From contig JAUSLL010000018.1 of the NCBI GenBank assembly GCA_030649335.1, positions 1 through 64,000 on the forward strand: 64,000 nt of DNA, in the 5' to 3' direction. Below are positions 1,214-18,037 of the stretch, piece by piece. The first letter of the stretch is position 1; every line of letters starts with the position of its first letter. The position numbers and the translations under genes are program-made. The DNA comes from Parvibaculum sp. Lineage in GTDB: Bacteria; Pseudomonadota; Alphaproteobacteria; Parvibaculales; Parvibaculaceae. The notes below the pieces were generated by a model that was not told the origin of the DNA, did not search any database, and was given only the letters and a program-made list of their open reading frames with translations.

Positions 1214-1227
1214 CGTCAATTTTGACG
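1214..1227. promoter_or_regulatory. Dispersed palindromic operator, copy 1 (exact)
   Basis: CGTCAATTTTGACG, exact six-base arms. It sits immediately before the start codon at 1211, overlapping the expected ribosome binding site, so a bound protein would block expression of that gene. Other copies are at 7954, 12060, 14910, 15796, 16900 and 17661. Confidence 0.7.
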
Positions 1228-1236
1228 GAATGAAGC

Positions 1237-1597
1237 GAGTTACAGCAAGCGTAACTTTTTTATTGTTTGTTTATAATGGGTTAGTCGGTTGAGTTACATT
1301 CCGTGCACTGACTGTAACTCGTTTTGTAACTCAAATTTCTTAATGAAAACAACCTCTTATTATATATATCCCTATAAAGTTACATTTATATATATAGACA
1401 CCCCTATGTGCGCATGACCTTTTTTATTTTTATTTGGGAAAAAATAAAAAAAATAAAAAGACGTATTTCTCTCTATGGGTGTTCTTTCTGGAAAAAGCGT
1501 AGTTTTTGTAACTCCGCGTCTAAGTTGATGATTTTAAAGGCAAAGTGCGAGATACACGGCTGTAACTCCGCTGTAACCCGCAGGCGTTTTGTAACTC
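1237..1597. repeat. GTAACTC iteron cluster with AT-rich core; candidate phage replication origin
   Basis: This gene-free, AT-rich stretch holds seven exact copies of GTAACTC: direct at 1314, 1326, 1508, 1562 and 1591, inverted (GAGTTAC) at 1237 and 1291. Near copies are at 1251 (GTAACTT), 1377 (AAGTTAC) and 1573 (GTAACCC). Several are preceded by T-runs, for example CGTTTTGTAACTC at 1320 and 1585. Between the two groups is a run of TATATA sequence (1370-1396) and an A/T-only inverted repeat (about 1419-1460), as expected of a DNA-unwinding element. Iterons flanking an AT-rich core are typical of replication origins. The primase and helicase genes are in the same arm, but the initiator is not identified. 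Confidence 0.5.
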
Positions 1598-1643
1598 ATT
1601 TCGGCCTGTTATTGGTAGAAATGGGCGCGGAATATGCGCGGGA

Positions 1644-1745
1644 ATTGATTTCGCCTATTTTTCTAATTGCTCGATGCTATTTATTTAATAGCGGAAAACC
1701 ATATTCCGGATATTGCCGGAAATTGCCGGAAATTGATTTCGCCTA
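1644..1745. repeat. Direct repeats beside the iteron region
   Basis: ATTGATTTCGCCTA (14 bp) occurs at 1644-1657 and 1732-1745. Just before the second copy is a 10-bp tandem pair, ATTGCCGGAA at 1712-1721 and 1722-1731. No gene is credible here (1228-1779). Role unknown; could be part of the origin or a recombination site. Confidence 0.5.
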
Positions 1746-1779
1746 ATTAAAATATGGTTTTGAATATTGGCGACGGTAT

Positions 1780-2277
1780 TTAATCCGCCTTTTCGACGCT
1801 GACCGTTGATATTTTTTCGGCCTTCGCGTCATAGATGCAGGCGAATCGCATCGGGACAATCGCGCCAAAACCATTTTTGAAGCCAACGCCGCTGCCGGTC
1901 ATGGCAATTTTTGACCTGCCTGCGTCGTAAACAGCGATGGTCGAATAGCGTTCCGAGTAGGGTTTCCAGACCGCTTCCAGCTTGGCACGTTTTGAAACGG
2001 CGGCTTCGCAGGCGGTGCGGGCTTCGACTTCGAATGTCTTTACGAGGCAGTCCGCCGAAACGAGGCAGGCGGCGCGCTCGACGTCGTCAAGGTCGCTTGA
2101 TGCCTTCTCATACTTATCCGCCGTTGCTGCGGCTGTGAGTGCCGCAATCGAGGCGGTGCCGAACGCGACGGCATAGAGCCCGGATCGTGCCCAAGATCGC
2201 CGAAACGCGGCCCTGCCCGCCAGAAAAAGCATGGCGACGGCGATAACGGCGGCGGTACTGAAAATGACAAACGGCAT
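1780..2277 (-). CDS. Small inner-membrane protein, unknown function
   Basis: 165 residues. Start ATG 2277 is chosen because AAGGGGG lies 6 bases upstream; an upstream in-frame start lacks this. Two hydrophobic helices, near residues 4-20 (FVIFSTAAVIAVAMLFLAG) and 30-48, are followed by a soluble part with two cysteines (AACLVSADCLV) and a third further on. The topology suggests a membrane-anchored soluble domain. Last gene of the leftward operon that starts at the 3725 promoter. I recognise no family. Confidence 0.6.
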   Translation of the reverse strand: MPFVIFSTAAVIAVAMLFLAGRAAFRRSWARSGLYAVAFGTASIAALTAAATADKYEKASSDLDDVERAACLVSADCLVKTFEVEARTACEAAVSKRAKLEAVWKPYSERYSTIAVYDAGRSKIAMTGSGVGFKNGFGAIVPMRFACIYDAKAEKISTVSVEKAD

Positions 2278-2326
2278 TACAATCCCCCTTCGTAAAGCGG
2301 GGATTGTGCGGGACAAGCTGGGATAT

Positions 2327-2361
2327 GTCGAGCCGCACCATTTGAGGCGGCACGGCTCGAC
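2327..2361. terminator. Hairpin between two leftward genes
   Basis: GTCGAGCCG (2327-2335) pairs with CGGCTCGAC (2353-2361), and ACAAG/CTTGT further out can extend the stem. There is no T-run on either side, so it may be a factor-dependent terminator, a processing site or an mRNA stabiliser. Confidence 0.35.
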
Positions 2362-2371
2362 TTGTGCCTAT

Positions 2372-2938
2372 TCAGCGGGTTTGGGCGGCTGGTTTCTTCA
2401 ATGATGGCTTTTCAGTCATCGCGTCGAGCCATTCGATCGCGGTTCGGGCCACGTCTGGCGGCATCGCTTTTGATGGCCCAAACATGGTGCGCGTGGCGGT
2501 GTATATCGTCGATGCCGAGCATTCGAGGCGTTCCGCAGCGTCGGCTATTGCGTCCGAAACCGTCCGCGGCCGCGCCGCCCGTTCCGCGACCTTTTCCCGC
2601 TTGAGCGCGATGACGTGAGCCGCGCGCATGAAGCCCGCTTTTACCGCGGCGATGATGCCGGGGCTGTGCGCCGTATCCGCGAAGGCGTTGATCATGGCTA
2701 TGCATTCCGGTTCCGTGAGCCAAAACACGGTCGATGCCACAGTGTTGCCGTCCTGGTCAGGTTCCGACGTGACCGTGACCGCATGGGCGTCGCTGCCTGT
2801 CAGAGCCCGCACAAGGTATGCCGGCGACCGGAAAAGCCCGCCTGCGTCGCCGACAATCATGTGATGCAGCGCCGTATGTGGGAAGCGCGCAGCATCGTCG
2901 AGTAGGTCGATTTTGTTCCATTGCATGAAGTGGGTCAT
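2372..2938 (-). CDS. Possible phage regulatory (Rha/antirepressor-like) protein
   Basis: 188 residues, soluble. The centre reads FWLTEPECIAMINAFADT followed by AAVKAGFMRA, which resembles the Rha/antirepressor segment where an LT-D/E-E-x-L core is followed by an arginine-rich helix. The C-terminal part (SDAIADAAERLECSASTIYT) could be a helix-turn-helix. ATG 2938 overlaps the stop of the HTH gene at 2935 (ATGA), so the two are translationally coupled. Family assignment is tentative. Confidence 0.4.
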   Translation of the reverse strand: MTHFMQWNKIDLLDDAARFPHTALHHMIVGDAGGLFRSPAYLVRALTGSDAHAVTVTSEPDQDGNTVASTVFWLTEPECIAMINAFADTAHSPGIIAAVKAGFMRAAHVIALKREKVAERAARPRTVSDAIADAAERLECSASTIYTATRTMFGPSKAMPPDVARTAIEWLDAMTEKPSLKKPAAQTR

Positions 2939-3192
2939 GTGCCCGCCCCGTCTCGACGTTGGTCTGCAAGCCCGCGCGCCAAGGTCCAGGCAAAATCAAG
3001 ATTTGCCTGCGATCGCTCACAAAGCCGGATGATGATTTCAACGTGAGGCGGGACATCGGCTTCGCCAGACTCCCAGCGTCGCACCGTGCGGCCCCTGTCG
3101 TCGCGCCTGGACTGCGTTCCGAGTAGGTCCGCCATTTCGTTAGCCGACAGCCCGAAGGCATCGCGGGCGGCGCGGAATTCTTGCGGGGTCAT
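2935..3192 (-). CDS. XRE-type helix-turn-helix regulator
   Basis: 85 residues. MTPQEFRAARDAFGLSANEM, then ADLLG and RRWESGEADVPPHVEIII, is a Cro/CI-type HTH, the pattern often found in short phage and toxin-antitoxin repressors. Start ATG 3192 has GGAG 9 bases upstream. It is the third gene after the operator-controlled promoter at 3725-3753 and is a candidate for the protein binding the TAGGGC operators; no binding evidence exists. Confidence 0.7.
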   Translation of the reverse strand: MTPQEFRAARDAFGLSANEMADLLGTQSRRDDRGRTVRRWESGEADVPPHVEIIIRLCERSQANLDFAWTLARGLADQRRDGAGT

Positions 3193-3219
3193 TCTGATTT
3201 ACTCCATGTTAAGAGAAGT

Positions 3220-3237
3220 GCCCGGCCGAAGCCGGGC
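3220..3237. terminator. Intercistronic hairpin
   Basis: GCCCGGC (3220-3226) and GCCGGGC (3231-3237) with a CGAA tetraloop. It lies between the stop of the gene at 3247 and the start of the HTH gene at 3192. Without a T-run it is more likely an attenuator or mRNA-processing hairpin than a full terminator. Confidence 0.4.
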
Positions 3238-3246
3238 TCTCAGGTG

Positions 3247-3492
3247 TTAAACGTATCTATTGCGGATCAAGTAGGACGTGAGAGAGAGCCGATCCGGGGC
3301 TTCTCGATAAATTCTCGGGGTAGGGCAGACATAGAAGACCGCCGCGCCTTCGCGGCAAAGTTCCCCGATCATTTGCTCGGCGTCGTCAAACTGGCGCTCA
3401 AGTTTTTCATAAGCGCGGTCGTCGGCTTTGCAGCGTCTTTTATCGCGGGCGTCGAGTTGGGCGTCGAGCTTGGAGTCAAAGTCGGTTTTCAT
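3247..3492 (-). CDS. Small charged phage protein, unknown
   Basis: 81 residues from ATG 3492, which has GAGGGG upstream. The first half is highly charged and helical (MKTDFDSKLDAQLDARDKRR); the C-terminal part has one pair of cysteines (GELCREG, FYVCPTPRI). Second gene of the leftward operon from the 3725 promoter. No family recognised. Confidence 0.5.
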   Translation of the reverse strand: MKTDFDSKLDAQLDARDKRRCKADDRAYEKLERQFDDAEQMIGELCREGAAVFYVCPTPRIYREAPDRLSLTSYLIRNRYV

Positions 3493-3506
3493 TTTCTGTT
3501 TTCCCC

Positions 3507-3677
3507 TCAATGCTTTGTCGCGGCGTGCGCGGCGCTGGTGTTCATTGTGTCGTAAAGGTCGGAAGCAAGTTTCTCCCATGAGCCCGAGCCGAGCACTGCG
3601 TCGAAGGCTTCGGCGGCCGTGCGACCCGCGATCAATTCTTTGGCAATGGCGAGTGTGATTTTTTGCGAGGCGGTCAT
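3507..3677 (-). CDS. 56-residue phage protein, first gene after the regulated promoter
   Basis: ATG 3677 to TGA 3507 encodes 56 residues beginning MTASQKITLAIAKELIAG. GGA lies 9 bases upstream of the start. The position, directly after the -10 box at 3725-3730 and 15 bases before the next gene, supports a real leader gene. No family recognised. Confidence 0.5.
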   Translation of the reverse strand: MTASQKITLAIAKELIAGRTAAEAFDAVLGSGSWEKLASDLYDTMNTSAAHAATKH

Positions 3678-3724
3678 TTGCTTTGATCCAGTGTTGCGGC
3701 CGGTCGGCCCGTTTCGATAAACAC

Positions 3725-3753
3725 AGAATAGGGCATCAAGCCCTATACGTCAA
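3725..3753 (-). promoter_or_regulatory. Leftward promoter with operator filling the spacer
   Basis: Read leftward: -35 TTGACG (3753-3748), a 17-base spacer, -10 TATTCT (3730-3725). Most of the spacer is the inverted repeat ATAGGGC-N5-GCCCTAT (3728-3746). A protein bound there would cover the promoter. It drives the genes from 3677 leftward. Confidence 0.75.
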
Positions 3754-3787
3754 CAATAAAAAACACAAAATCCAAAAATAATTCATA

Positions 3788-3816
3788 TTGACACATAGGG
3801 CCACAAGCCCTATCTT
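3788..3816 (+). promoter_or_regulatory. Rightward promoter with matching operator in the spacer
   Basis: -35 TTGACA (3788-3793), 17-base spacer, -10 TATCTT (3811-3816). ATAGGGC-N5-GCCCTAT (3795-3813) fills the spacer and shares both arms with the leftward operator 67 bases away. It drives the gene at 3864. The mirror-image layout implies one regulator controlling both directions. Confidence 0.75.
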
Positions 3817-3863
3817 TGTTTCAGTCAAGGGCGATTAAGCCCGCCAACATGGAGAATGACAAA

Positions 3864-6917: not shown

Positions 6918-7099
6918 GGCGTTGGACCGAGTAATTTGCGGAGCGGGTCATATACAAAATCGCTCCAAACGAGCGCCGCGATGCCGCCAAGCCCGAACAG
7001 CAGATCGCGCGACACGTCGTCGGGAATGAAGAACAAAAAGGCCTGCTGTATTACAAAAAGCGCGAAAATTCCGAGAGTTAATCGCAATAAAAATTTCAT
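6914..7099 (-). CDS. Small two-helix membrane protein, holin-like
   Basis: 61 residues from ATG 7099 (overlapping the previous stop as TGATG). Two membrane helices, residues 4-24 (LLRLTLGIFALFVIQQAFLF) and 32-48 (LLFGLGGIAALVWSDFV), with a positively charged end. Size and topology fit a class II holin, but no lysin gene is adjacent, so the role is open. Confidence 0.5.
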   Translation of the reverse strand: MKFLLRLTLGIFALFVIQQAFLFFIPDDVSRDLLFGLGGIAALVWSDFVYDPLRKLLGPTP

Positions 7100-7512
7100 C
7101 ACGCACGCCCTTCCGCGCGACGCTTGCGCCACTTGCGGACCTGCGCCGAATTCATGCGGCCATTGCGCTGTATCGCTTCCATCGCTTCCGCTTCGGCGAT
7201 GATTTCGGACGCGGAGCGGGTGCGAACCGGCAAGGCGGCGCGGCTCGCGTCGTGGCGCTGCACGCGTTTCAGCCCGCAACGGTCGGCAAACTCGACACAT
7301 GCGCCGCCCTTCGTGCCTTGCAGCAAGGCGAGGACATAAATCGGTCGCGTGTCTGCGTCAGATACCGGAGAACGTCGCGTCAGTTTTGACGCTTGGCGGG
7401 CAAGGAAAGCGTCGAGCGCGAAGCACGCGTCGGCCAACTTGTGCGCGTAGGGGCGGAGCGTGGCGCGGATCATGTCGGCGCGGCGGTCGGGCATTGTGAA
7501 TGTGATGGTCAT
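7099..7512 (-). CDS. Phage hypothetical protein
   Basis: 137 residues. GGGAAAA precedes ATG 7512, which overlaps the previous stop (ATGA). A helical N-terminus is followed by a basic C-terminal end (MNSAQVRKWRKRRAEGRA). The coding DNA contains a one-mismatch copy of the dispersed palindrome (7378-7391), perhaps by chance. No family recognised. Confidence 0.5.
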   Translation of the reverse strand: MTITFTMPDRRADMIRATLRPYAHKLADACFALDAFLARQASKLTRRSPVSDADTRPIYVLALLQGTKGGACVEFADRCGLKRVQRHDASRAALPVRTRSASEIIAEAEAMEAIQRNGRMNSAQVRKWRKRRAEGRA

Positions 7513-7658
7513 TTATGTTTTCCCATTTTTGCGGCGCGGACCCGTCGCGCCTCGATGATTTTGTCAACCCATTGCGGCGCGTAGTGTTCGCGCGTCGCAA
7601 TGCGGGCAAGCTGTTCGCGGGTTCGGGCCGCTGCCACTTCGTCGCGGGTCGCGGTCAT
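7509..7658 (-). CDS. 49-residue basic phage protein
   Basis: ATG 7658 to TGA 7509, ATGA-coupled at both ends. Begins MTATRDEVAAARTREQLARI and ends in a basic tail (VRAAKMGKHK). Too short for domain recognition; coupling at both ends makes it credible. Confidence 0.5.
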   Translation of the reverse strand: MTATRDEVAAARTREQLARIATREHYAPQWVDKIIEARRVRAAKMGKHK

Positions 7659-7885
7659 ATCGCCACCCCGCCGCGCGTGTTCCAACGCTGCGCCAGCGCC
7701 TTTTCCGTCTGATCAATAAGCACGGGGCCGACGGGGCACTTCGGGGATGAACAGCAGCCAATAAACCCGCCGACATGAGTGCCGCGCGGCGTCACGGAAA
7801 TTTCTGACGCGCAAAACGGGCACGGCTCGAATTTCACGTAATTGGCCGCCGCATCTGTCGGGCCGGTATCAACAACAAGCGACAT
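7655..7885 (-). CDS. Lar-like restriction-alleviation zinc protein
   Basis: 76 residues from ATG 7885, with GAGGG 7 bases upstream. PCPFCASE, then CCSSPKCPVGP and the end ALAQRWNTR match the Lar family: two cysteine pairs and a terminal A-x-W-N-x-R. Rac-prophage Lar lessens type I restriction. Two methyltransferase genes in the same operon fit an anti-restriction role. The nearest dispersed palindrome (7954) is in its upstream region. Confidence 0.65.
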   Translation of the reverse strand: MSLVVDTGPTDAAANYVKFEPCPFCASEISVTPRGTHVGGFIGCCSSPKCPVGPVLIDQTEKALAQRWNTRGGVAI

Positions 7886-7953
7886 CTTCAATCCCTCATT
7901 CCATCATTTTTCCGTCTGCGTTAAAACGTATTCCGTAAAAATAACGGAGTCAA

Positions 7954-7967
7954 CGTCAATTTTGACG
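7954..7967. promoter_or_regulatory. Dispersed palindromic operator, copy 2 (exact)
   Basis: CGTCAATTTTGACG, extended to AACGTCAA-TT-TTGACGTT. It lies between the primase stop (7968) and the Lar-like gene, a position to block read-through or a downstream promoter. Read leftward it is preceded by GCGCGGATAA, which is shared with the copy at 12060. Confidence 0.75.
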
Positions 7968-10775
7968 TTATCCGCGCAACCAAGAAAGCGGCAGCCAAAC
8001 GGCGCGGGATTTGTCGAAACGGGAAAAGGAAATCGGCGACTTTCCGGATTTTTGAGCGCCTGGAATGGCGGACAAGGTGCGGCTCCACCCCGAAGCCCAA
8101 GGCGAGCCGGAAAGCACTTTCGACAAGCCGGAATGTTTGTTTGCGACCCACAAGCCACCATCGGCGAGTCGCAGTCCGAGACGTTGCAAAACCTTCTCCG
8201 CGCGGTCGCCGTACAGGTCGCCAGCCGCGCCATTGACTGCCATTTCGAGCAATTCCGACACGGTGAATTCCTCCGCCCTGCCCTGGTCAATCGTGGCGCG
8301 TTCGCGGTGTTGCATGATCCGCGCAATAAGCTGGCGTTCGTCGCCATCGTCACGGCCCACAGGCCCGACATCGTTAAAGCCCTTGTCTTGCAGCCACTTC
8401 AGCGCGGCGCTGTATTCAATATGCCCCGTGCTGTGCAGCAAATATGCCCCGGCGAGCATCGGCCCGTATTGCTGGCCCGCGCGCATCGATCCGAAATAGG
8501 CCGCAGCGGCGCGCGTGAACACTTCGCAATTGTGTTGCAGCGCGACCAAGTTGCGGACCGTGCGCGCAATCATTCCGGCGATGTATTCCGGCGAAAGCGT
8601 CTCGCTCAATAGCCGCGACAGCGTTTCCCATTTCGCCGTCATGGCTTCCGCCGCGGCATCATCTGCGGCGTGTATAGGCATCAAGGCGAGTTGCGTGATG
8701 CGCGTTTCGTCGGCGTGAAATTCAATCGACGGATTTACTGACGAAAATATGAAACATGATCGCACGCGAAAGCCCTTGGCCTTGTGCGCCGATCCGCCCT
8801 TGACGATTTCGCCGCCTGAATCCGTCGATGAAACGCGGGCCAAGTCGATGATGGTGCGGATACGTGCGCGGGTCGCATCGTCTTTGCCTTCGGCTTCGTC
8901 GAACAGCACGGGGCGGGCATCGTATTCCAATGATTGCCGGATTCCCGCCTCGGTCGTGGCGCCCTCGACGATGAAGGCCAGCGGCGAAATGAGCGGCCCG
9001 ACGAAGCGTGTCATAACTGACGTCTTGCCGGATCCTGACGGGCCGACGATCCAGATATGCGGACGCCACGGCAAGACGCCGCAGACCGGCGCGACGACAC
9101 AAGCCCCGGCGAGCAAGTAAGCATGGAGCGGCGACTCCCAGCTAAATTCGCGGGCCATGTCGAGCGTCTTGATCGCGTCACGGTTTTGCAGCGGGGCAGA
9201 CAGGTCCAAATCGACGGACTCGCCGGTTTCGTAAACGAATCCGGTTTTCATGGTTTGGACATCGACGAAAGCCTCATCGACCCACAGCGCGTCGCCCATG
9301 TGAAACACGTTCCGGCCCGCATCGATCCACGCCCCACGGCCACGCCTTTTGCGCTGGCCATTGAAAACGCCGCATTTCATGGATGCTTGAATCAGAGCAT
9401 TCGCGGCGAGGCTCCAATCGACGCGGCCCTTTTCGTCTTGGTAACGCGATTGCCAAAACTGGAACGGGGCGAGGAAAAATAAATTATTTGAAGTGTGCCC
9501 CGCCGCGGTCAGTTCGATGATTTGGCCGCCACTTGCGGGCAGATATGAACAGACGCCGCGGTCATAGCCCAAAAGGCGGAACGGTTGATCGTCGGCCCGC
9601 GTGCCTGGGTCGCTTGGTTCGAATACGTCGCCGCCGTCATGCCCGTCATGGGCCGGAATTTCGTCATGGTGCGGCGGTTCGTCATTCGGCGCGGCTGCGG
9701 CGGGCTCATAAACCGGCCCGCGCGCCCTTGCGGCGGCCACGGCCGTTTTAAGCCATATCCACGCATCGGCGGGGGTCACGGATTCCGCTTCCATATCGGC
9801 GGCGTCCCATCCGTCGCGCCTCCCGTCGGGTCGATCGATGACGACGATTTTTGCGACGCCGTGCAACAATTCGGCGACGCGGCGCATGGCCAGAAACCCG
9901 CCCTGCTCCGCCCAAGGCATTTCGGTGCCGATGTTGTCGCCGGTTTTATAGGCTTGAGTATCGGCATCGGGCCACGCCACGACGTTGCGGCCCGCAAGGG
10001 CAGACCATTCCGCACGGTCCACGCTATTTGTGCCGTTGGGCCACGTCACGGCGACCATATCGGGAAAGAGGCGCGACGCAGCGGCGGCGGCTTTTTCGCC
10101 CTCGCACAAGATGACGGCTTTGTCGGGCCGCTGTGCGAGTTGGTCCAAATTCATAAGCGGGCGCGGTTGCGGAAAGCTGACATCGACCCAGCCTGTGAAA
10201 CCTTCGGGGCCTTCGCAATACGTCAGAGTCGGCGCGATCTTGACGCGCTTCCCCGCATCGTCGGTCCATTCCTGCCGGATAACGATGCCGAGCAATCCGC
10301 CGTCGCGGTCCCTGTAGGGCCATGCCGCCGCTATTTGGCGCTCGACATATTTGCCCGACTTGTGCTGATAAAACTTGGCGCGCCCGTTTTTGATAGGGTC
10401 CGGCGCGTCTTTCGGGACCGGCATTACGGCCCGATATTCACTGGCGTCTGACTTCGGGTCAGCTGCGACGGGCGCGGCGCGCTTCTCCGGATCCGGCACA
10501 TATTCGCCGGTGATGACCTCGACGGCGGGGCGAAACTCCGCGCCCGTGATTTTCATAACAAAATCGATGATGTCGCCGTGTTCGCCGCAGCCGTGACAGT
10601 GCCAGAATTGCTTAGCATCGACGACGGAAAATGATGGCGTCTTCTCGCCGTGAAACGGGCACAGCGCGGAGTATTCCGAACCCTTCTTTTTCAGGTCGAT
10701 ATATCGCCCGACGATTTCCGAGACTTTGAATTTGGCGCGGATTTCGTCGGTGTTGATTTTGGTGCGGGGGGTCAA
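7968..10775 (-). CDS. Phage DNA primase-helicase (CHC2 zinc finger, TOPRIM-like, ATPase)
   Basis: 935 residues. Residues 39-63 carry a CHC2 zinc finger (CPFHG, WHCHGCG). A TOPRIM-like core follows, with CEGEKA at 224-229 and WPDAD at 268-272. A linker rich in Asp/His/Pro (355-400) leads to a helicase-type ATPase with Walker A GPSGSGKT (578-585), Walker B LFDEAE (624-629) and a FIFSSVNPS sensor segment. It should prime and unwind phage DNA at the fork. The start is TTG 10775, chosen because AAGGGG is upstream and it overlaps the VRR-NUC stop (TTGA). Largest gene of the prophage in view. Confidence 0.85.
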   Translation of the reverse strand: MTPRTKINTDEIRAKFKVSEIVGRYIDLKKKGSEYSALCPFHGEKTPSFSVVDAKQFWHCHGCGEHGDIIDFVMKITGAEFRPAVEVITGEYVPDPEKRAAPVAADPKSDASEYRAVMPVPKDAPDPIKNGRAKFYQHKSGKYVERQIAAAWPYRDRDGGLLGIVIRQEWTDDAGKRVKIAPTLTYCEGPEGFTGWVDVSFPQPRPLMNLDQLAQRPDKAVILCEGEKAAAAASRLFPDMVAVTWPNGTNSVDRAEWSALAGRNVVAWPDADTQAYKTGDNIGTEMPWAEQGGFLAMRRVAELLHGVAKIVVIDRPDGRRDGWDAADMEAESVTPADAWIWLKTAVAAARARGPVYEPAAAAPNDEPPHHDEIPAHDGHDGGDVFEPSDPGTRADDQPFRLLGYDRGVCSYLPASGGQIIELTAAGHTSNNLFFLAPFQFWQSRYQDEKGRVDWSLAANALIQASMKCGVFNGQRKRRGRGAWIDAGRNVFHMGDALWVDEAFVDVQTMKTGFVYETGESVDLDLSAPLQNRDAIKTLDMAREFSWESPLHAYLLAGACVVAPVCGVLPWRPHIWIVGPSGSGKTSVMTRFVGPLISPLAFIVEGATTEAGIRQSLEYDARPVLFDEAEGKDDATRARIRTIIDLARVSSTDSGGEIVKGGSAHKAKGFRVRSCFIFSSVNPSIEFHADETRITQLALMPIHAADDAAAEAMTAKWETLSRLLSETLSPEYIAGMIARTVRNLVALQHNCEVFTRAAAAYFGSMRAGQQYGPMLAGAYLLHSTGHIEYSAALKWLQDKGFNDVGPVGRDDGDERQLIARIMQHRERATIDQGRAEEFTVSELLEMAVNGAAGDLYGDRAEKVLQRLGLRLADGGLWVANKHSGLSKVLSGSPWASGWSRTLSAIPGAQKSGKSPISFSRFDKSRAVWLPLSWLRG

Positions 10776-11161: not shown

Positions 11162-12046
11162 GCGAGTTTGCCTTGCTTGTCGAGCGTTTCGACCATCTGG
11201 ATTCTTGTGCCGATCCAGCGCATACAATTTACCGCCATTGAGTTGCCGAGCGCCTTGTATCGCGGGCCATCGGCGGCGGGCTTGCCGCGCACTTCTATGA
11301 GCGTGTAACGGCGCGGAAACCCTTGCAAAGATTCGCATTCTTCGGGTGTGAGGCGGCGCACGGCCCAAGGTTGCGCGACGCATGACCGCGACGAACCGCC
11401 TGACGCGGCGCGGCGGAGAATCCCGGCGCAAGCCTTCGGGCTCAAATAGAACCGCTGCGGCACGTCGCCAGTCTCCAATATATCCGACAATGAACAGACG
11501 CCGGCGTCTTTGAGGGACAGCCCGTCCAAACCCGTCCACTCGGCAATATTGAGCGTCAAGCACTCGGTATGCGAGCCCGTAAGCGTTCCGGTATCCTGGG
11601 ATGATTCCGAAGTTGGACCATCCGCCGTCGGGGACATCGACGACTTGGCCGCTGAACAATCCCAAAATTGTTGCAAAGTCTTGTCCGGCGTTGCTCGAAA
11701 GAACGACGGGGACATTTTCCCAAAGGAGCCAGCGGGGGCGAAGTTTTGCAGCAATGCGGCCAAACTCAAGCGAAAGGTTGCCACGGTCGCCATCGAGTCC
11801 GGCACGCAACCCCGCGATGCTGAAATCTTGGCAGGGGGTTCCGCCGACAATAATGTCAACTGTGTCATTGATTTTCCAGTCATCGTGTTTTGTCATGTCG
11901 CCGAAGTTCGGCACGTCGGGATAGCGCGCGGCCAAAACGGCGCACGGGAATTTTTCGATTTCGGAAAAGCCGACCGGCTTCCATCCCAAGGGATGCCACG
12001 CGACGGATGCGGCTTCGATGCCGCTGCATATCGAAAGATAATTCAT
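10772..12046 (-). CDS. dcm: DNA cytosine-5 methyltransferase, motifs I-VIII, frame runs on into VRR-NUC
   Basis: ATG 12046 overlaps the stop of the adenine methyltransferase (ATGA). Motif I is SICSGIEAASVAW, motif IV GGTPCQDFS with the catalytic Cys, motif VI LLWENV and motif VIII QRRRRLFIVG. After about residue 215 (FEPEGLRRDSPPRR) similarity stops: the target-recognition region usual between motifs VIII and IX is absent, and motifs IX and X lie in the +1 frame. This frame has no stop and continues through the VRR-NUC gene to 10772, giving 424 codons. Either an internal deletion inactivated the enzyme or frameshifting makes it. Host or phage DNA protection is the expected role. Confidence 0.6.
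   Translation of the reverse strand: MNYLSICSGIEAASVAWHPLGWKPVGFSEIEKFPCAVLAARYPDVPNFGDMTKHDDWKINDTVDIIVGGTPCQDFSIAGLRAGLDGDRGNLSLEFGRIAAKLRPRWLLWENVPVVLSSNAGQDFATILGLFSGQVVDVPDGGWSNFGIIPGYRNAYGLAYRVLDAQYCRVDGFGRAVPQRRRRLFIVGYIGDWRRAAAVLFEPEGLRRDSPPRRVRRFVAVMRRATLGRAPPHTRRMRIFARVSAPLHAHRSARQARRRWPAIQGARQLNGGKLYALDRHKNPDGRNARQARQTRMTDSAATHLVKQTILALSADPDVRAWRNNTGVAWMGRPQFMRNGSVLIADPRRVAFGVPGSGDIIGFQRITITPEMVGQTIGRYITVECKSGKGRQSELQTKFERVATAFGAAYVVARDPADAVKGIKI
11158..11868 (-). CDS. ORF overlapping dcm in another frame; carries methyltransferase motifs IX and X
   Basis: 236 residues from ATG 11868, in the +1 frame relative to the dcm frame. Residues to about 155 (ending CSLSDILETGDVPQRFYLSP then KACAGILRRA) resemble a phage protein I have seen overlapping cytosine methyltransferase genes. 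The rest (RRLTPEECESLQGFP, ADGPRYKALGNSMAVN) is the C-terminal part of a cytosine-5 methyltransferase: motif IX region and motif X. So this frame holds both an overlapping protein and the missing end of the enzyme. It may be expressed itself or reached by frameshifting. Confidence 0.5.
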   Translation of the reverse strand: MTQLTLLSAEPPAKISASRGCVPDSMATVATFRLSLAALLQNFAPAGSFGKMSPSFFRATPDKTLQQFWDCSAAKSSMSPTADGPTSESSQDTGTLTGSHTECLTLNIAEWTGLDGLSLKDAGVCSLSDILETGDVPQRFYLSPKACAGILRRAASGGSSRSCVAQPWAVRRLTPEECESLQGFPRRYTLIEVRGKPAADGPRYKALGNSMAVNCMRWIGTRIQMVETLDKQGKLA

Positions 12047-12789
12047 GCCTGCCCCATATCGTCAGATTTGACGTTATCCGCGCGGAATAAATCCGGACGT
12101 TCGCCCCATCTTGAAAGCCGTTCGCAGGCAACGTCGAACCACTTTTCAGATGATTCAATCCCGATGAAAGCGCGGCCAGATTCCAGCGCGGCGACGCCCG
12201 TTGTGCCGGTGCCCATAAAAGGATCCAGAACCGTCGCGCCTGCATCGGTTGAATTTGTGATGTAGTGCTTCATCAAGGCGACGGGCTTTTCCGTCGGATG
12301 CAGCGTGACATCGACTTGCGGGCAGCGAATGAGTTGCTTCGCGCCCTTGTCGGTTATGCCGCGCGCCCTGCCCTTCCATGAGTAAATCGTGAATTCCAGA
12401 TTCTTCATGTACCAGCGATTAGGCGTCGCGGTGCCCTTGTCCCAGACGAGCAAATTATGAAACTTGAATCCGGCATTAAGCATCGCGTTTTGTGCCGCGT
12501 TTTGGTTCTTGTCGTTTGCCATGACATAGGCGTCGGCATCATCGGCGAGTGCGGCGAAGGCGAGCGGCATCCAGTCGGAAAATTCGATGTCGCAATCGAC
12601 GATGCCGCCGTCGTTGTCATAAACTTCGACCGCGAAGACACCGCCCATTTCGCCGGTATATTTCCCACCCGCCGTCAGCCTGTACGGCGGATCGCTGCAA
12701 AGCACTTTCGCGCCGCGAATACGCGGAAGCACGTCGCGGCAGTCAGCGAGATATAGCGTCGCCGCGCCTATTGTTTCGACTCTTGTCAT
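12043..12789 (-). CDS. DNA adenine/cytosine-N4 methyltransferase (DPPY type)
   Basis: 248 residues from ATG 12789 (ATGA overlap with the cupin-like gene). SDPPYRL near residue 33 is the catalytic motif IV and LDPFMGTGTTGVAAL near 190 is the AdoMet-binding motif I, the order of the beta class. HPTEKPVALM between them is characteristic. It would modify phage or host DNA against restriction. Its last codons contain a one-mismatch copy of the palindrome (12060). The target sequence cannot be read from the gene. Confidence 0.85.
   Translation of the reverse strand: MTRVETIGAATLYLADCRDVLPRIRGAKVLCSDPPYRLTAGGKYTGEMGGVFAVEVYDNDGGIVDCDIEFSDWMPLAFAALADDADAYVMANDKNQNAAQNAMLNAGFKFHNLLVWDKGTATPNRWYMKNLEFTIYSWKGRARGITDKGAKQLIRCPQVDVTLHPTEKPVALMKHYITNSTDAGATVLDPFMGTGTTGVAALESGRAFIGIESSEKWFDVACERLSRWGERPDLFRADNVKSDDMGQA
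12060..12073. promoter_or_regulatory. Dispersed palindromic operator, copy 3 (one mismatch)
   Basis: CGTCAGATTTGACG, inside the end of the adenine methyltransferase gene and 14 bases before the dcm start. Read leftward it has GCGCGGATAACG in front, the same extension as the copy at 7954. Confidence 0.55.
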
Positions 12790-13274
12790 TCCCCACAGCC
12801 TCGCCCGACTGCGCCGATGTCCCGCGCGTCGACGAATTCCTGCCACGGACGCCACCCCTTCGGGCAATGGAAGCCCCATTCACGGATGCGCGGGCCGGTG
12901 ATGAACAGGGTCCAGCATGGCGTATTTGTGTCGCCTAATTCGAGGCGGTGCGCCACGGTCGCGCGGCGGAACACAATCGAACCGGCGCGGCGCAACTTGG
13001 GCCGATACTCTCCCGCGACGTACTCCCAATAAAACCCCTGCAACACAATCGAAATGTTGAACCACGGATGATCGTGCAGCGCCGTGTCGTCATCGCTGCG
13101 CAAGATTTGATGCAAATAGATATTGCCGAACGCGTTGCGCGGCACGACAAACCATCGATTTAACTGCGGATTTACAGCGCCGCCGATGATGAAATCCGGC
13201 GCGCGTCGCACAAGCGAATAGCAACGCATGATAAGCAGGCACAAAAGCACGCAAATAAATGAAACGAATAACAT
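12786..13274 (-). CDS. Membrane-anchored cupin-like phage protein
   Basis: 162 residues from ATG 13274, with GAGGGGG upstream and overlapping the helicase stop (TGATG). An N-terminal helix (LFVSFICVLLCLLIMRCY) anchors a cupin-like beta barrel: LHDHPWFNISIVLQG, GSIVFRRATVAHRLEL and WTLFITG carry the two histidine-bearing cupin motifs. The end WGFHCPKGWRPWQEFV matches a widespread phage family of this type. Substrate unknown. Confidence 0.6.
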   Translation of the reverse strand: MLFVSFICVLLCLLIMRCYSLVRRAPDFIIGGAVNPQLNRWFVVPRNAFGNIYLHQILRSDDDTALHDHPWFNISIVLQGFYWEYVAGEYRPKLRRAGSIVFRRATVAHRLELGDTNTPCWTLFITGPRIREWGFHCPKGWRPWQEFVDARDIGAVGRGCGE

Positions 13275-14809
13275 CAATTCCCCCTCGCTGTTGCAATGAA
13301 TGGCAGTTCCGCGCCGCGCTTCGCGTCGTCTTTTCTTTTCCGCGCCTCGACGATGATGCGGGCCCGCGCCGCTGCCTTTTGCGGTGAATTCCCGTCGCGG
13401 CGTCGGAATAATTCGGTCAGCGATTGCAGGTCTTTCGCCATGCCTTGCTCGCGGTATCTCGCGCGACTGACGGCGACGTGATCCACTTCGATCAATTCGC
13501 CGTCGACTTGCTCCGGGCTGTTCGATTTTGTCGGTGCCGCCGCGCCGCAATGGGGGCAGAATTCAAGCGCCGATGCGTATGACGCGAAACATTCGAGGCA
13601 AATCGTGATGGCATTAGCTGGCGTTAAATCCCGCTCGCCCGCCGCACCTTTTCTTTTCTTGCGACCGTCGAGGCTCCACTCGATTTCGTCTTCGGGGAAG
13701 CCCAGATTCGGACGCCAAACGCCGTTGACGGTTTGGCCGCAGTTCCCGACGTGATCGATGATGTAAGCGAATTCTTTGCCGGGATAGCGACGCAGCACGC
13801 GGCCCATTTGCTGCCGGTGCATCGCTATGGATTTTGTTGGCCGCAACAGGATGGCGGCTGCGACGATCGGGACGTCGGTGCCTTCATTGACGATGTTGCA
13901 ACTCGTGATGCCGTGCAGCGTGCCGTCGCCAAGACCACGGATCGCGGCGTGACGCTCGACGTCCGGCGTGTTGCCGTCGACACTTTTGACGCGATACCCC
14001 GCCGCGACGAATTCTTCGGCGACGTGCTTGGCATGTGCCACATTGGCGCAAAACGCGATGAAGGGCTGCCCGTTGCAAATCCGCGCGTAATGCGCGATGG
14101 CGTCGCCGGTGATTTGTCGCCGGTCCAGAAGCGCGGCGGCTTCGGCTGCGTTATAGTCCCCGCCCTTGGTGTGGAGAGACAACAAGTCGAGCGATACCGG
14201 CGGCGAAAAGACACGGGGCCTTGCGAGCCATCCCGCATCAATGAGTGAGCCCACAGTCGGACCCTGCACCATGCTCGTATAGATGCCGCCGGAATTGACG
14301 CCCAAGCCCTTGCCGTCGAGCCGTTCCGGCGTTGCGGTCAATCCGAGCCACTTGGCATCGGGCATGGCATCGACAAGCCTGCGCCACGTACCGGCGGCGG
14401 CGTGATGGCCTTCATCTAGGAAGCCAAGGTCGAATTTTTCAATCGTGTCGAGCCGCCGTGCAATGGTCTGGATCGATGCCACGCTTGACGGGGCTTCCGA
14501 GTTGTAAAACCCGCGCCCGACCTCCGCGATTTGTTCCCGAATGGCATGGCGTCTGACGGAATCCGGCGCGTCGATCCGGTGCCAGACGCCTTCGCGTGCC
14601 AGCGCAAGCGACGTCTGCACGACAAGTTCCTGCCGGTGAACGATGAGCCCGCAGCTATTTCCCTTTTGCTGCGCCGCATTCACGATAAATGCCATTACTT
14701 TCGTTTTGCCCGCGCCTGTCGGCGCAACGGCAAGCGGCGCGGTGCTTCCCTGTGAGAAGTCGGCCCGAATGTCGGCAATAAATTTCTTTTGATAGTCGCG
14801 GAGTGTCAT
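13274..14809 (-). CDS. Superfamily 2 DEAD/DEAH-like DNA helicase
   Basis: 511 residues. Walker A APTGAGKTKVM (about 30-40), motif II DEGH near 130, motif III LTATPERLDG, and a C-terminal helicase domain with VNEGTDVP and QQMGRVLRRYPGKE (motif VI). A CxxC/CxxC knuckle (CLECFASYASALEFCPHCG) follows near residue 400. It most resembles RadD/UvsW-type ATP-dependent helicases that remodel forks. First gene of the leftward replication operon; ATG 14809 has GGGAA close upstream. Confidence 0.85.
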   Translation of the reverse strand: MTLRDYQKKFIADIRADFSQGSTAPLAVAPTGAGKTKVMAFIVNAAQQKGNSCGLIVHRQELVVQTSLALAREGVWHRIDAPDSVRRHAIREQIAEVGRGFYNSEAPSSVASIQTIARRLDTIEKFDLGFLDEGHHAAAGTWRRLVDAMPDAKWLGLTATPERLDGKGLGVNSGGIYTSMVQGPTVGSLIDAGWLARPRVFSPPVSLDLLSLHTKGGDYNAAEAAALLDRRQITGDAIAHYARICNGQPFIAFCANVAHAKHVAEEFVAAGYRVKSVDGNTPDVERHAAIRGLGDGTLHGITSCNIVNEGTDVPIVAAAILLRPTKSIAMHRQQMGRVLRRYPGKEFAYIIDHVGNCGQTVNGVWRPNLGFPEDEIEWSLDGRKKRKGAAGERDLTPANAITICLECFASYASALEFCPHCGAAAPTKSNSPEQVDGELIEVDHVAVSRARYREQGMAKDLQSLTELFRRRDGNSPQKAAARARIIVEARKRKDDAKRGAELPFIATARGN

Positions 14810-14907
14810 CGGGTTCCCGTCCGAATGTTGGCCAGGCGAGGCGATGGGAACCCTTAAACCGCGTTGCCCGCTATTCTTGGAATCGCCCGCCTGACCGACC
14901 CGAAGGA

Positions 14908-14925
14908 AACGTCAAATTTGACGTT
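14908..14925. promoter_or_regulatory. Dispersed palindromic operator, copy 4 (18-bp perfect palindrome)
   Basis: AACGTCAAA-TTTGACGTT is perfectly symmetric. It lies in the 268-base gap between the divergent helicase and repressor genes. Read leftward, TTGACA (14932-14927) is followed by 17 bases of this palindrome and a poor -10 (TTTCCT), so it may sit in a weak leftward promoter. Best candidate for the repressor's main operator. Confidence 0.75.
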
Positions 14926-15010
14926 ATGTCAACGGCGGAAAAAGCGAAGCGTGACGGGCTGACAAAAAATTGCGCAGTTTACCTAGTAATGCTGTGGATT
15001 AATTCGTAAT

Positions 15011-15039
15011 TTGACGTAAAAGTAAAAAGAGCCTATTTT
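15011..15039 (+). promoter_or_regulatory. Promoter of the repressor gene
   Basis: TTGACG (15011-15016), 17-base spacer, TATTTT (15034-15039). A half-site of the palindrome (CGTAATTTGACG, 15005-15016) overlaps the -35 box, which would allow autoregulation. Confidence 0.65.
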
Positions 15040-15077: not shown

Positions 15078-15743
15078 ATGCCTCGCACCCGCTCGCCCGG
15101 AGCCCCGCCCCACGACGCCAGAAATCGTCGTCAGCGGGAATTGATCGACACCCGCATGCACGAATGCGGCATCGATACCATCGCGCAACTCGAAGACATG
15201 GCGGGAGTGAAGCGCGATAAGGTCAGGCACTTCCTGAAAGGCTACACCAAAAGCCTAAACTCCAATGCGATGCAAGCAATTTGCGCCGTGTTGGGGATTC
15301 CGGTTTACGATTTTGTCGGCGGGCCGGACACAGGCTGCGCGCGGGAACAATTCGTGTTTCACGTCGATGACGTCTCAGAGTCCCCGCCCGCGGTTAAGTC
15401 GCTTGGAAAAATTGGAATCTCCATCCCCGCAAAATTTGGGATGCCAGGCAACGGAAACCTAGGTGCATGGGTCGTCGCTGGCGATAGCTCGATGTCGCCG
15501 GTCATTGCAAAGGGCGATTTCGTTTGGGTCGACTGGCGCGATGCTTTCAACGGCGCTGGGATTTATCTTTTACGCGGCGCGGCGAAAACGGCGCCGACAT
15601 TATTGCGCCGCGTCACGCCGCACGGCATCGGCGGCAAGGTCGATGTTACGGCGGAGAACGCGCGGCACGGCGGGCAAAGCAATATCTCGCTTTCTGCGCT
15701 GCGGTTTCTTGGCCGCGCGACGCACACAATAAAAAAGATTTAG
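15078..15743 (+). CDS. CI/LexA-like phage repressor (HTH plus S24-like domain)
   Basis: 221 residues from ATG 15078, with GGAG 6 bases upstream; ATG 15066 lacks a ribosome site. An N-terminal HTH (IAQLEDMAGVKRDKVRHFLKG) is followed by a C-terminal S24-like domain with GDSSMSPVIAKGDFVWVDW. The Ser of the peptidase motif is present, but where LexA/CI have the catalytic Lys (usually K-R-V) the sequence is LLRRVTP. Self-cleavage is therefore doubtful, and induction may use an antirepressor. Located between the two divergent arms, it is the likely master repressor and probable ligand of the dispersed palindromes. Confidence 0.75.
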   Translation: MPRTRSPGAPPHDARNRRQRELIDTRMHECGIDTIAQLEDMAGVKRDKVRHFLKGYTKSLNSNAMQAICAVLGIPVYDFVGGPDTGCAREQFVFHVDDVSESPPAVKSLGKIGISIPAKFGMPGNGNLGAWVVAGDSSMSPVIAKGDFVWVDWRDAFNGAGIYLLRGAAKTAPTLLRRVTPHGIGGKVDVTAENARHGGQSNISLSALRFLGRATHTIKKI

Positions 15744-15795
15744 TAAATTCATTTTGACGCTTGCGTTAAATCTTGATTTCGCTCTATGGTTAAAA

Positions 15796-15809
15796 CGTAA
15801 AGTTTGACG
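15796..15809. promoter_or_regulatory. Dispersed palindromic operator, copy 5 (one mismatch)
   Basis: CGTAAAGTTTGACG in the 114-base gap after the repressor gene. A possible weak promoter (TTGCGT 15761, TATGGT 15785) lies just upstream, so the site could control the rightward recombination operon. Confidence 0.55.
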
Positions 15810-15857
15810 CTTCGAAATTACGGAGTCAGTCGATGCGGACGAGGCCAAGGGTGAAAC

Positions 15858-16064
15858 ATGAATGGAAACGCGAAACCAAAAACATCGGAAGAAGCGAAAA
15901 AGTTGCGTTGCGTGAATACTCAGTCCAATTGCGACGGTGATGCCTGTAAGGCTTGGTCGCACGTCGTAACGCTAGAGGTCGAGACGGGAGAACCGGCGAC
16001 AGCCGAGGCGATTGAGGCAGGGGCTGACGTCATTAATTTCGGCACCTGCGGCATGCTGAAATGA
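15858..16064 (+). CDS. Small cysteine-containing phage protein
   Basis: 68 residues, with AAGGGTG upstream of ATG 15858. Four cysteines (RCVNTQSNCDGDACKAW and the terminal TCGMLK) suggest metal binding. ATGA-coupled to the nuclease gene. First gene of the rightward operon; no family recognised. Confidence 0.5.
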   Translation: MNGNAKPKTSEEAKKLRCVNTQSNCDGDACKAWSHVVTLEVETGEPATAEAIEAGADVINFGTCGMLK

Positions 16065-16876
16065 CGCTTAACAATATCATTCGCGTCTCGGATTTGCCTT
16101 CAGTTGCGGATTGTTCCCGCCGCTGGATGTCGCGGAGCCGCCCCGCCGAAGTCAAGGCGGCTGGGTTCGACCTGCGCGAAATGTCGTCATCAATCGGCGC
16201 GGCAATCGGGACCGGCACACATGCCGGACTCGAAAACGCTTTCCGCTCCAAGATGGAGGCGCGCGTTATTGAAGTTGAGTCTTTCCGCGAATGCGCCGCC
16301 GAGTCGATCATGGAGTCGATCAAAGATGGTGTCATCTGGGACGATGCGACGACGAATGTGGATGCCGCCATTACTCAGGCGACGCGGCAAGCCCGCATCA
16401 TCTGGGATTATTTCGGCGACGTTATTGAGCCCGTGGCCATTGAAGAAAGACTATCTGCGGACATCGGCGACGGGTTTATTTTGCGCGGTCATATTGATGT
16501 CAGAGAAGCGGCCCGTGTCGTCGATTTCAAGACCGGCACAGTGCAGCGGGCCAATCAGCCGCAATACGGCGGTTATAGTTTGGTCGCGCGGTCGAACGGT
16601 CACACTGTTGATGCTGTTGCGGAAATATATTCAAAACGCGTCGGCGTGACGCGGGATCAGCCCGCGCCTACTCTGACGGAATACGATATCGCGGAGTCTG
16701 AAATCGCGGCGCAAGAAATCTATACCCGCATGAAGGCCGACATTTTGGCATTCAGGGAACGCGGCGATCCGTGGGTGTTTCTGCCAAATCCGAACTCGAT
16801 GAATTGTAGCGAGAATTATTGCCCGGCATGGGGGACTTCTTTTTGTCGGGCGCATAAGCAGCCCAAGGCGAAATAA
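16061..16876 (+). CDS. PD-(D/E)XK (RecB/Cas4-like) exonuclease
   Basis: 271 residues. GHIDVREAARVVDFKTG (around 146-162) has the D...D-x-K core of RecB-family nucleases, followed by QPQYGGYSLV (motif III Q/Y). The C-terminal cysteines (MNCSENYCPAWGTSFC) with an N-terminal Cys near residue 18 could hold an iron-sulphur cluster as in Cas4/AddB. Followed by a RecT-like gene, it forms a phage recombination pair: a 5'-3' exonuclease feeding single strands to an annealing protein. Confidence 0.75.
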   Translation: MTLNNIIRVSDLPSVADCSRRWMSRSRPAEVKAAGFDLREMSSSIGAAIGTGTHAGLENAFRSKMEARVIEVESFRECAAESIMESIKDGVIWDDATTNVDAAITQATRQARIIWDYFGDVIEPVAIEERLSADIGDGFILRGHIDVREAARVVDFKTGTVQRANQPQYGGYSLVARSNGHTVDAVAEIYSKRVGVTRDQPAPTLTEYDIAESEIAAQEIYTRMKADILAFRERGDPWVFLPNPNSMNCSENYCPAWGTSFCRAHKQPKAK

Positions 16877-16899
16877 CGCCCTTTTTATCAACCCAATAA

Positions 16900-16913
16900 C
16901 GTCAAATTTGACG
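16900..16913. promoter_or_regulatory. Dispersed palindromic operator, copy 6 (exact)
   Basis: CGTCAAATTTGACG, preceded by ATAA and followed at once by GGAAAGAG, the ribosome site of the RecT-like gene (ATG 16928). Confidence 0.75.
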
Positions 16914-16927
16914 GAAAGAGAACCGAA

Positions 16928-18037
16928 ATGAGTGAGACAGAAAAAGCCGTGGCGACGGTCGAGCCGCAGGCGTCGACACAGGCCCTTAGCGTCTTTGATA
17001 GCGCGGCAGGGTTCGATCTGGCGCAACGCATGGCGCGCGCCCTTGTGACGTCCGACATGGTGCCTGCGGCGTATCGCGGCGAAGACAAGATCGGCAATGC
17101 GATTATCGCGCTCGACATGGCGAAACGCACCGACTCCAATCCGGTCATGGTGATGCAAAATTTGCACATCATTGAAGGCCGCCCGTCGTGGTCATCGCAA
17201 TTCATCATTGCCGCGCTCAATTCTTGCGGCATGTTTTCACCGCTGCGCTTCACGATGGCGGATGAAGGCGAAAAGGAAGTTTCGTTCCAGACATGGGGCG
17301 ACAAGAAGGGCGAGCGGGTCACCAAGACCCAGAAGATTCGCAACAAGACCTGCACGGCATACGCCATCGAAAAGGCGACGGGCGAGCGCCTTGATGGCCC
17401 GACCGTAAGCATGGAAATGGCCGTCGCGGAAGGCTGGTATGCCAAGAACGGGTCAAAATGGCAAACCATGCCGGACTTGATGCTTCGCTACCGCGCCGCC
17501 GCTTTCTTCGGTCGCTTGTATGCGCCGCAAATCTTGATGGGCATGCAGACCGACGACGAAGTGCGCGACGTTGCGGAAATGCGCGACATCACCGCCGCGC
17601 CCGAAGTCGCCACGGCCCGCACCGCGACGGACACGGCTGTCAATTCCGCTGACCCGATAACGTCAAAATTGACGGAATCAAAGCCCGACGAAAAGCCCGC
17701 CCCGGCGGTTGCTCAAGCGGGTCGCGGACGCCCCACCAAGGCCGACACAGACGCAGCGGAGGCCGACGGACAAAAGGCAAAGCGTAGCGGCGTACCGCGC
17801 GAAGCGGTGCCGGACGCCTTCGGCAAACCGTCGCTTAAAGCGGCATGGGAATCCGGCTGGGATGCCGAAGAAAAGCGGCCCGCCGCGACCGACAAGACCG
17901 GCGCGCCGTTCGATTTCGATGGCGAGACGGGCGAAGTGCTTGAAGACGGCGCGGCTGGCGATGGTGCCGCCGTGAAACAGGATGCCGCCGACGGGAAGCA
18001 AGTTGCCGCCGATGACGACGGCTTGGGATTTGAATGA
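16928..18037 (+). CDS. RecT-like single-strand annealing protein
   Basis: 369 residues. The first 210 (AQRMARALVTSDMVP, NAIIALDMAKRTDSNPVMVM, WSSQFIIAALNSCGMFSPL, MLRYRAAAFFGRLYAP) match the RecT-type recombinases of alphaproteobacterial phages. The remaining 150 residues are a low-complexity Ala/Asp/Lys tail containing RGRPTKADTD, perhaps a partner-binding linker. It should anneal single strands made by the nuclease upstream. An exact palindrome copy lies in the tail coding region at 17661. Confidence 0.65.
   Translation: MSETEKAVATVEPQASTQALSVFDSAAGFDLAQRMARALVTSDMVPAAYRGEDKIGNAIIALDMAKRTDSNPVMVMQNLHIIEGRPSWSSQFIIAALNSCGMFSPLRFTMADEGEKEVSFQTWGDKKGERVTKTQKIRNKTCTAYAIEKATGERLDGPTVSMEMAVAEGWYAKNGSKWQTMPDLMLRYRAAAFFGRLYAPQILMGMQTDDEVRDVAEMRDITAAPEVATARTATDTAVNSADPITSKLTESKPDEKPAPAVAQAGRGRPTKADTDAAEADGQKAKRSGVPREAVPDAFGKPSLKAAWESGWDAEEKRPAATDKTGAPFDFDGETGEVLEDGAAGDGAAVKQDAADGKQVAADDDGLGFE
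17661..17674. promoter_or_regulatory. Dispersed palindromic operator, copy 7 (exact, inside a gene)
   Basis: CGTCAAAATTGACG with GATAA in front, within the low-complexity tail of the RecT-like gene. An in-gene position would stall transcription rather than block initiation. Confidence 0.65.

Follow-up and report, generated by a model that had tools for sequence, protein, structure and literature searches.

To our knowledge, immunity through one repressor that acts at many operators dispersed over a prophage has been worked out in only a few phage groups, namely P1, phiC31, the relatives of L5, and SPbeta; the repressor sites of phiC31 are conserved inverted repeats. Here, we describe a prophage of Parvibaculum sp. 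(assembly GCA_030649335.1) that carries at least eleven copies of a palindrome specific to it, in both its early and its late regions, and argue from the sequence that it is probably silenced in this manner, with a CI-like repressor encoded at position 15078 shutting off early and late genes through these sites. Positions without a contig name refer to a 64,000-nt stretch (positions 1–64,000 of contig JAUSLL010000018.1, forward strand; hereafter, the window), of which positions 1–26294 hold the early and regulatory half of the prophage, as delimited by phage protein families and an attachment (att) core.

In the published descriptions, phiC31 and L5 together have 18–30 dispersed repressor sites (PMC4557955), the C1 repressor of P1 has 22 operators across the genome (PMC8546580), and SPbeta carries a repeated promoter-region element, SPBRE, that is bound by the master repressor MrpR and whose prediction from sequence preceded the identification of that protein by 24 years (PMC10516654). 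The L5 sites are described as 13-bp, asymmetric, and bound by a repressor monomer (PMC9283540); in L5 and other cluster A phages they lie in short gene gaps and around the repressor gene, with a motif that varies among related phages (PMC9283540; PMC6550527), and the gene order given for the L5 clade is repressor, unknown gene, Cas4-family gene, with sites around the repressor gene (PMC6550527). By analogy with these phages, in each of which one repressor acts at many sites, the system proposed here would be of an already known kind. No account of this prophage system was seen among the listed open-access papers on stoperators, dispersed operators, or alphaproteobacterial and Caulobacter prophage repressors.

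An unprompted enumeration of all 6 + 6 dyads with spacers of 0–12 in region 1–26294 returned CGTCAA-2-TTGACG as the largest family, with five copies; in 60 order-3 Markov simulations, the top family of each run had 1–3. The five exact copies (at 1214, 7954, 14910, 16900, and 17661) and three one-mismatch copies (7378, 12060, and 15796) had been listed in an earlier, sequence-only reading of the window, and all are present; its chance expectation of ∼0.0016 exact copies compares with 0.0013 when recomputed for 26,294 bases of the prophage's own composition. With up to two mismatches allowed, there are 20 matches in the window versus 3.72 expected, and none of 100 shuffles got to 20. A symmetrized 20-bp model, TAACGTCAAWWTTGACGTTA, refined once, yields 11 sites (designated below by the first base of the 20-mer), nine in the window and two on a second contig of the assembly, C33. 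The lowest of the 11 scores is 21.4 bits, above the top scores of 19.8 in 40 Markov simulations of 52.5 kb and of 12.1 in 66.5 kb of neighboring host sequence (the latter with the first pass of the model). The sites are palindromes with the consensus in both halves, and the center is A/T in 21 of 22 symmetrized positions. The list of eight was real and too short, having missed 21569–21588 (27.2 bits) in the window and 8742 and 21417 on C33; in the two C33 sites the outer TAACGT...ACGTTA is kept and the inner bases vary, which is why a search with the inner 14 bases passes them over.

The other, structural half of the prophage is C33:1–26235, with family matches to terminase, portal, head protease, major head, sheath, baseplate, and tail-fiber proteins. 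The 48-bp att core at 26247–26294, of which only the first base lies outside the tRNA-Pro gene used as integration site (26248–26324, minus strand), has its second copy at C33:26188–26235, adjoined by a tyrosine integrase gene (C33:24195–25466). Because of this repeat and the structural genes on C33, we take the prophage to be divided between the two contigs, with an unread gap between them. The palindrome is specific to this prophage: the assembly (3.54 Mb, 135 contigs) holds seven exact copies, five of them those in the prophage, and a host-wide search thus did not give equal density (two copies in the rest of 3.54 Mb versus five in 26 kb). At up to one mismatch, there are 44 places in the whole assembly versus five for a backwards control pattern. 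No copy had been seen in the core genome; as to exact copies, this holds within the window, whose host part has two one-mismatch copies (43720 and 44804), and fails elsewhere, with one exact copy within a cytochrome-oxidase subunit II gene and one between TetR-type and aminotransferase-type genes (named by eye). These two host copies are what speaks for a host regulon or a compositional artifact, an explanation that the density and the simulations refute and to which we assign next to no probability.

Nine of the 11 sites lie at gene junctions, with centers at distances of 10, 20, 22, 48, 56, 66, 72, 76, and 108 nt upstream of a start codon. Counting sites in a gap or at most 35 nt from a gene end, the figure is again 9/11, against expected shares of 0.28 in the early half and 0.20 in the late half (P = 0.0002); two alternative distance thresholds gave 7/11 (P = 0.0045) and 9/11 (P = 0.0007). 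The gene maps used for these counts, and for the related prophages G034 and G005 below, come from a simple in-house caller, with nine genes of the window prophage set by hand; under a longer reading with a TTG start (8731) of the gene called at 8824 on C33, site 8742 would fall in the first codons of that gene. Among the minus-strand genes, site 1 (1211–1230, core 1214–1227) is centered 10 nt before the start of a minor-tail-Z-like gene (606–1211), site 2 (7375–7394, one core mismatch) is within gene 7099–7512, site 3 (7951–7970) runs into the primase stop codon (gene 7968–10775) and is 76 nt upstream of gene 7655–7885, and site 4 (12057–12076, one mismatch) is in the last codons of an N6/N4 DNA methylase gene (12043–12879, family match), 20 nt upstream of where the C5-methylase gene starts (12046). 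Site 5 (14907–14926), the top scorer, occupies the divergent gap between the helicase gene (13274–14809, minus strand) and the repressor candidate (15078–15743, plus strand), and site 6 (15793–15812, one mismatch) lies between the stop codon of the latter and a small plus-strand gene (15858–16064). Site 7 (16897–16916) sits between a PD-(D/E)XK nuclease gene (16061–16876) and recT (16928–18037), 22 nt before the recT start, and site 8 (17658–17677) is within recT, beyond the segment covered by the Pfam RecT match (residues 94–220). Site 9 (21569–21588) is at the end of an SMC/RecF-type ATPase gene (19902–21605, plus strand, family match), 48 nt before an XRE gene (21626–21961, plus strand); like that of site 12057, its center is 24–26 nt before a gene's end, ahead of the next start. 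The placement first described, mostly at gaps or gene ends and once inside a gene, is therefore right as to the junctions, with two sites rather than one well inside genes (7375 and 17658).

As a side observation made after looking, GANTC occurs within 35 nt of 8/11 sites versus 22% of control junction positions (P = 0.000–0.006 across four distances tried), and there is a possible link to methylation and to GcrA, of which the prophage encodes a homologue (1–489, minus strand, PF07750). In the host part of the window, GANTC occurs 52 times versus 147 expected with equal bases, a scarcity that, along with the GcrA and GapR homologues of the prophage, points to an alphaproteobacterial host.

Set beside the known systems, the prophage shares with the dispersed-operator immunity of phiC31, P1, and SPbeta the feature of many prophage-specific junction sites, whereas the operators of lambdoid CI/Cro systems are clustered in one or two control regions and the sites here are spread over both halves. 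It is like phiC31 in that many putative repressor sites are distributed over a temperate phage genome, and differs from that Streptomyces phage in host group and repressor. One repressor with many genome-wide operators would be common to it and P1, whose operator is a 17-bp asymmetric sequence and whose prophage is a plasmid; a repeated element with one master repressor, here a candidate, recalls SPbeta, although MrpR has a tyrosine-recombinase fold and its element is 15 bp. With L5 it has in common sites in short gaps, sites flanking the repressor gene, sites inside operons, and a motif that differs between relatives. In contrast to the L5 sites, which are 13-bp, asymmetric, and monomer bound (PMC9283540) as well as orientation dependent, those here are 20-bp palindromes beside a CI-like gene. 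The L5 repressor combines a helix-turn-helix (HTH) with a Stoperator domain; the best families of the candidate are phrog_4 and HTH_26. Because the sites are palindromic, this is not an L5-type stoperator system. The proposal that one repressor silences the prophage from many sites, as in L5, is partly supported, by prophage-specific junction sites, early and late, that bracket the CI-like gene and by the like layout of a related prophage with a different palindrome (below); the suggested kinship to L5 is not supported.

The candidate product of 15078–15743 (the start may be 15066) has an XRE-type HTH and an S24-like C-terminal part. It matches the phrog_4 transcriptional repressor family (E = 9.8e-8) and, with 20.9 bits, falls under the cut-off of 22 for HTH_26; it has no match to Pfam S24, and a PDB search gave two loose matches, neither of them a mycobacteriophage repressor. 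By eye, the protein retains the catalytic Ser (GDSSMSP) and has LLRRV where the Lys would be expected, in a region of weak alignment with two other proteins. A clear Ser-Lys pair is seen by eye neither in this protein nor in the CI-like protein of the related G005 prophage, and RecA-dependent cleavage may therefore not be the trigger of prophage induction. The central bases of the 434 and P22 operators act through indirect readout, and a palindrome with an A/T center suits a dimeric repressor of the XRE/CI type. A half-site had been noted at the repressor promoter, and it exists: TTTGACGTAA (15010–15019, plus strand) holds the −35 box of a promoter-like match, TTGACG-17-TATTTT (15011–15039). 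The promoter itself is less firm, such matches being at chance frequency (8 versus 9.1 in shuffles). By hand count, TTTGACG outside full sites occurs 7 times in the 26.3-kb prophage and 15 times in the 37.7-kb host part of the window, with no higher density in the former, and because a promoter-like sequence at 3753 also has TTGACG as its −35 box, the half-site may be a mere −35 box.

In the mechanism that we favor, a dimer of the 15078–15743 product would bind TAACGTCAAWWTTGACGTTA at 11 or more places in both prophage halves. In the lysogen, the repressor would cover promoters in gene gaps, for example in the divergent helicase/repressor gap, and would probably also block transcription passing from gene to gene, so that early and late operons would both be shut. 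The sites flanking the repressor gene would set the level of the repressor and limit read-through into the nuclease/recT operon. Those that precede ribosome sites or lie inside operons or inside recT seem poorly placed for promoter control and fit a roadblock.

The choice of protein follows from gene position, and we consider it unlikely that the same dispersed operators are read by another HTH protein of the phage, be it the Cro-like XRE protein of 21626–21961 or the products of 22161–22574 or 2935–3192. Site 21569, 48 nt before the 21626 start, and the clear HTH_3 match of the XRE protein (E = 1.1e-9), clearer than any in the CI-like protein, are in favor of such a reader; yet it is the CI-like gene that sites surround in each of the two prophages compared, and the promoter-like pair upstream of 2935–3192 bears a different palindrome.

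Relatives of the prophage were sought with its tail sheath as a probe, which found them in 12/385 genomes of the class and 5/40 of the order, own genome counted. Prophage regions were compared in G034 (two prophages), G089 (one of three places), G327, G243, G298, G201 (one of two), G111, G005, G025, and G022; the sheath-related genomes G195, G081, G066, and G292 were left out. The prophage on contig C11 of G005, from another genus of the same family and with a tail sheath 48% identical, has a like layout and a different palindrome, CCGGTAWWWWTACCGG. A model of the latter, scanned over C11:1–60000, gave 20 sites at or above 14 bits versus 0–1 per simulation (20 simulations, top score 17.4); four of 19 entries in a first match list had been dropped, their central bases not being A/T. 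Gaps account for 10.7% of the sequence and hold 16 of these 20 sites (P = 1e-12). In both prophages sites bracket the CI-like gene (14907 and 15793 here; C11:38785 and C11:39587 around C11:38897–39508). The two CI-like proteins both match phrog_4 and give a weak colinear alignment (23%, pairwise E = 8e-4); because they match so weakly, their homology appears likely and is not secure. The late sites, too, have counterparts in G005, one before the homologue of the head-protease gene and one at the end of the baseplate-wedge homologue, before that of the tail-fiber gene. Among 28 flanks of 14 homologous late genes, sites are found at three here (two sites) and at five in G005, including those three (P = 0.003 by flank; P = 0.027 if the three are taken as two sites).

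Several results weigh against the picture of a CI-like repressor acting through conserved dispersed sites. None of the three site-bearing flanks of five homologous early genes, which are rearranged, is matched in G005, and with all 20 homologous pairs included, 3/6 agree (P = 0.2); the restriction of the flank test to late genes was chosen after looking, and the comparison of positions in related prophages, suggested by the sequence-only reading, thus supports conservation for late sites and not for early ones. The 10-base core of CCGGTAWWWWTACCGG has eight copies in the 3.5-Mb G005 genome, six of them on C11, and a backwards control of this core has 26 matches in that genome; because the control outnumbers the core genome-wide, only the clustering on C11 is evidence for CCGGTAWWWWTACCGG. 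In a third prophage, G034, an S24 repressor gene is not bracketed by the local palindrome. Here, the XRE gene 21626–21961 is preceded by a site as well, and a weak −35/−10 pair is seen by eye around the palindrome in no more than 3/11 site regions. A single-sequence structure model of the 15078 product (predicted local distance difference test score, 40) was too poor for a fold search. Relatives of the repressor were found neither in phages (E = 1e-5) and plasmids (0.01), nor in 39 other genomes of the order (1e-5), 384 other genomes of the class (1e-4), or genome_contigs, and without a close relative, site and repressor cannot be tracked together. In viral_contigs, one contig matched, at 54% across 24 residues only.

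The G005 sites also bear on how the repressor might act. If most sites stop RNA polymerase within transcription units, these would be convergent stoperators proper, a form of the favored mechanism that we find possible, if somewhat doubtful. Three site centers 10–22 nt before start codons, two sites deep in genes, and one in the methylase operon would fit such a role, and the order repressor, small gene, PD-(D/E)XK nuclease recalls that described for the L5 clade (PMC6550527). The half-site that RNA polymerase reaches first has the better consensus match in 12/13 unequal G005 sites (three ties, two-sided P = 0.003) and in 6/9 here (one tie, P = 0.51), the divergent sites 14907 and 38785 being excluded from this test and the weaker G005 sites 18976, 19019, and 55686 (3/20) from this and the flank-column test. 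Against stoperators proper, the sites are palindromic, the window prophage by itself has no significant bias, and many G005 sites, by eye, have promoter-like sequence directly downstream. An equal bias would arise if one half overlapped a promoter or a ribosome site, and the test was made post hoc. In the G005 flanks, one downstream column slightly exceeds the shuffled 95% level (0.83 versus 0.77). A TTTACAT/ATGTAAA-like element was seen by eye near ∼8/18 oriented G005 sites (L326–L328), up to ∼20 nt downstream.

A broader proposal, which we regard as doubtful, is that a lineage of Mu-tailed prophages within one bacterial family has independently evolved palindromic stoperators, with the repressor and its 11–20 sites changing together, sites being retained at key positions (either side of the repressor gene, and late-operon junctions), and directional action on elongating RNA polymerase. 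The two related prophages, homologous in their late genes and different in their palindromes, amount to a natural experiment, raising the question of how the specificity of a repressor changes when 11–20 sites must change too, and their palindromic sites would allow promoter cover to be separated from elongation block in the laboratory.

It is quite improbable that the palindrome is instead an activator or promoter element (for a late activator, or a phage-specific promoter) that switches genes on. Sites do precede genes, and phage ZRG1 has six dispersed TTTAC-3-GTAAA palindromes that overlap the −35 box of promoter-like repeats, five of the six being 49–75 nt upstream of the gene that follows. 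In the window prophage, the spacing between site and start codon ranges from 10 to 108 nt, no flank column rises above the 95% level of shuffled flanks (1.03 versus 1.05), and sites are present in the early, the regulatory, and the late regions alike.

A role in partition, replication, or recombination (as parS-like elements or iterons) is more improbable still. The sites are dispersed palindromes, and in G034, of the same genus, the palindrome CGCACG-S-CGTGCG has 15 copies, 13 of them on two contigs with homologous late genes that we infer to be one prophage; because ParB is encoded on one of these contigs, the G034 palindromes may be partition sites. Their association with junctions is weaker (6–7/13, P = 0.005–0.06 depending on gene map and distance). 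The window prophage, by contrast, has no ParB_N match on C33 or on the window's contig (C97), is integrated with att core and integrase, and has sites that track gene junctions. In the other prophages, no dyad family fell below 1e-3 in G022, G201, G298, G327, or G111, and G089, G243, and phage PBb001 gave GC-rich dyads, which probably reflect composition. G034:C57 (L305–L306) and G025:C147 (L329–L331) have in common a dispersed CGGAAGCGCTTCCG followed by CTA, with matching spacings, which looks like a promoter element, possibly a late one.

Other phage loci were searched through the prophage's replication and recombination genes. The helicase found no viral contig; for RecT, the best 80 of 232 relatives in viral_contigs and 60 in genome_contigs gave 140 loci, scanned together with most of ZRG1 and PBb001. 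None of these 142 loci has the exact motif, and 15 have one-mismatch copies, one each except two in L283; eight such copies lie at one place in recT homologues and were rejected as a protein-coding coincidence. Motif scans of viral_contigs returned at least 120 stretches in a first round and five in a second, and among 297 loci, five have two sites of at least 16 bits and none has three. A search for clustering of degenerate palindromes was dropped, swamped by GC-rich codon patterns.

The prophage also encodes a GapR homologue (18438–18713, plus strand, PF10073), 75% identical to the copy in the G005 prophage, which together with the GcrA homologue and the N6/N4 DNA methylase makes up a set of cell-cycle type regulators. 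The next gene (18710–19429, plus strand) has matches to the central domain of the DNA polymerase III beta clamp and to RusA. Within 3725–3816, there is a divergent promoter-like pair (3753–3725 on the minus strand and 3788–3816 on the plus strand, in a scan at chance frequency overall), and both members carry a second palindrome, ATAGGGC-N5-GCCCTAT, in the −35/−10 spacer. On the minus side, small open reading frames are followed by the HTH gene 2935–3192, with a weak, below-cut-off match to Aca2/YdiL, a layout resembling that of an anti-CRISPR/aca operon.

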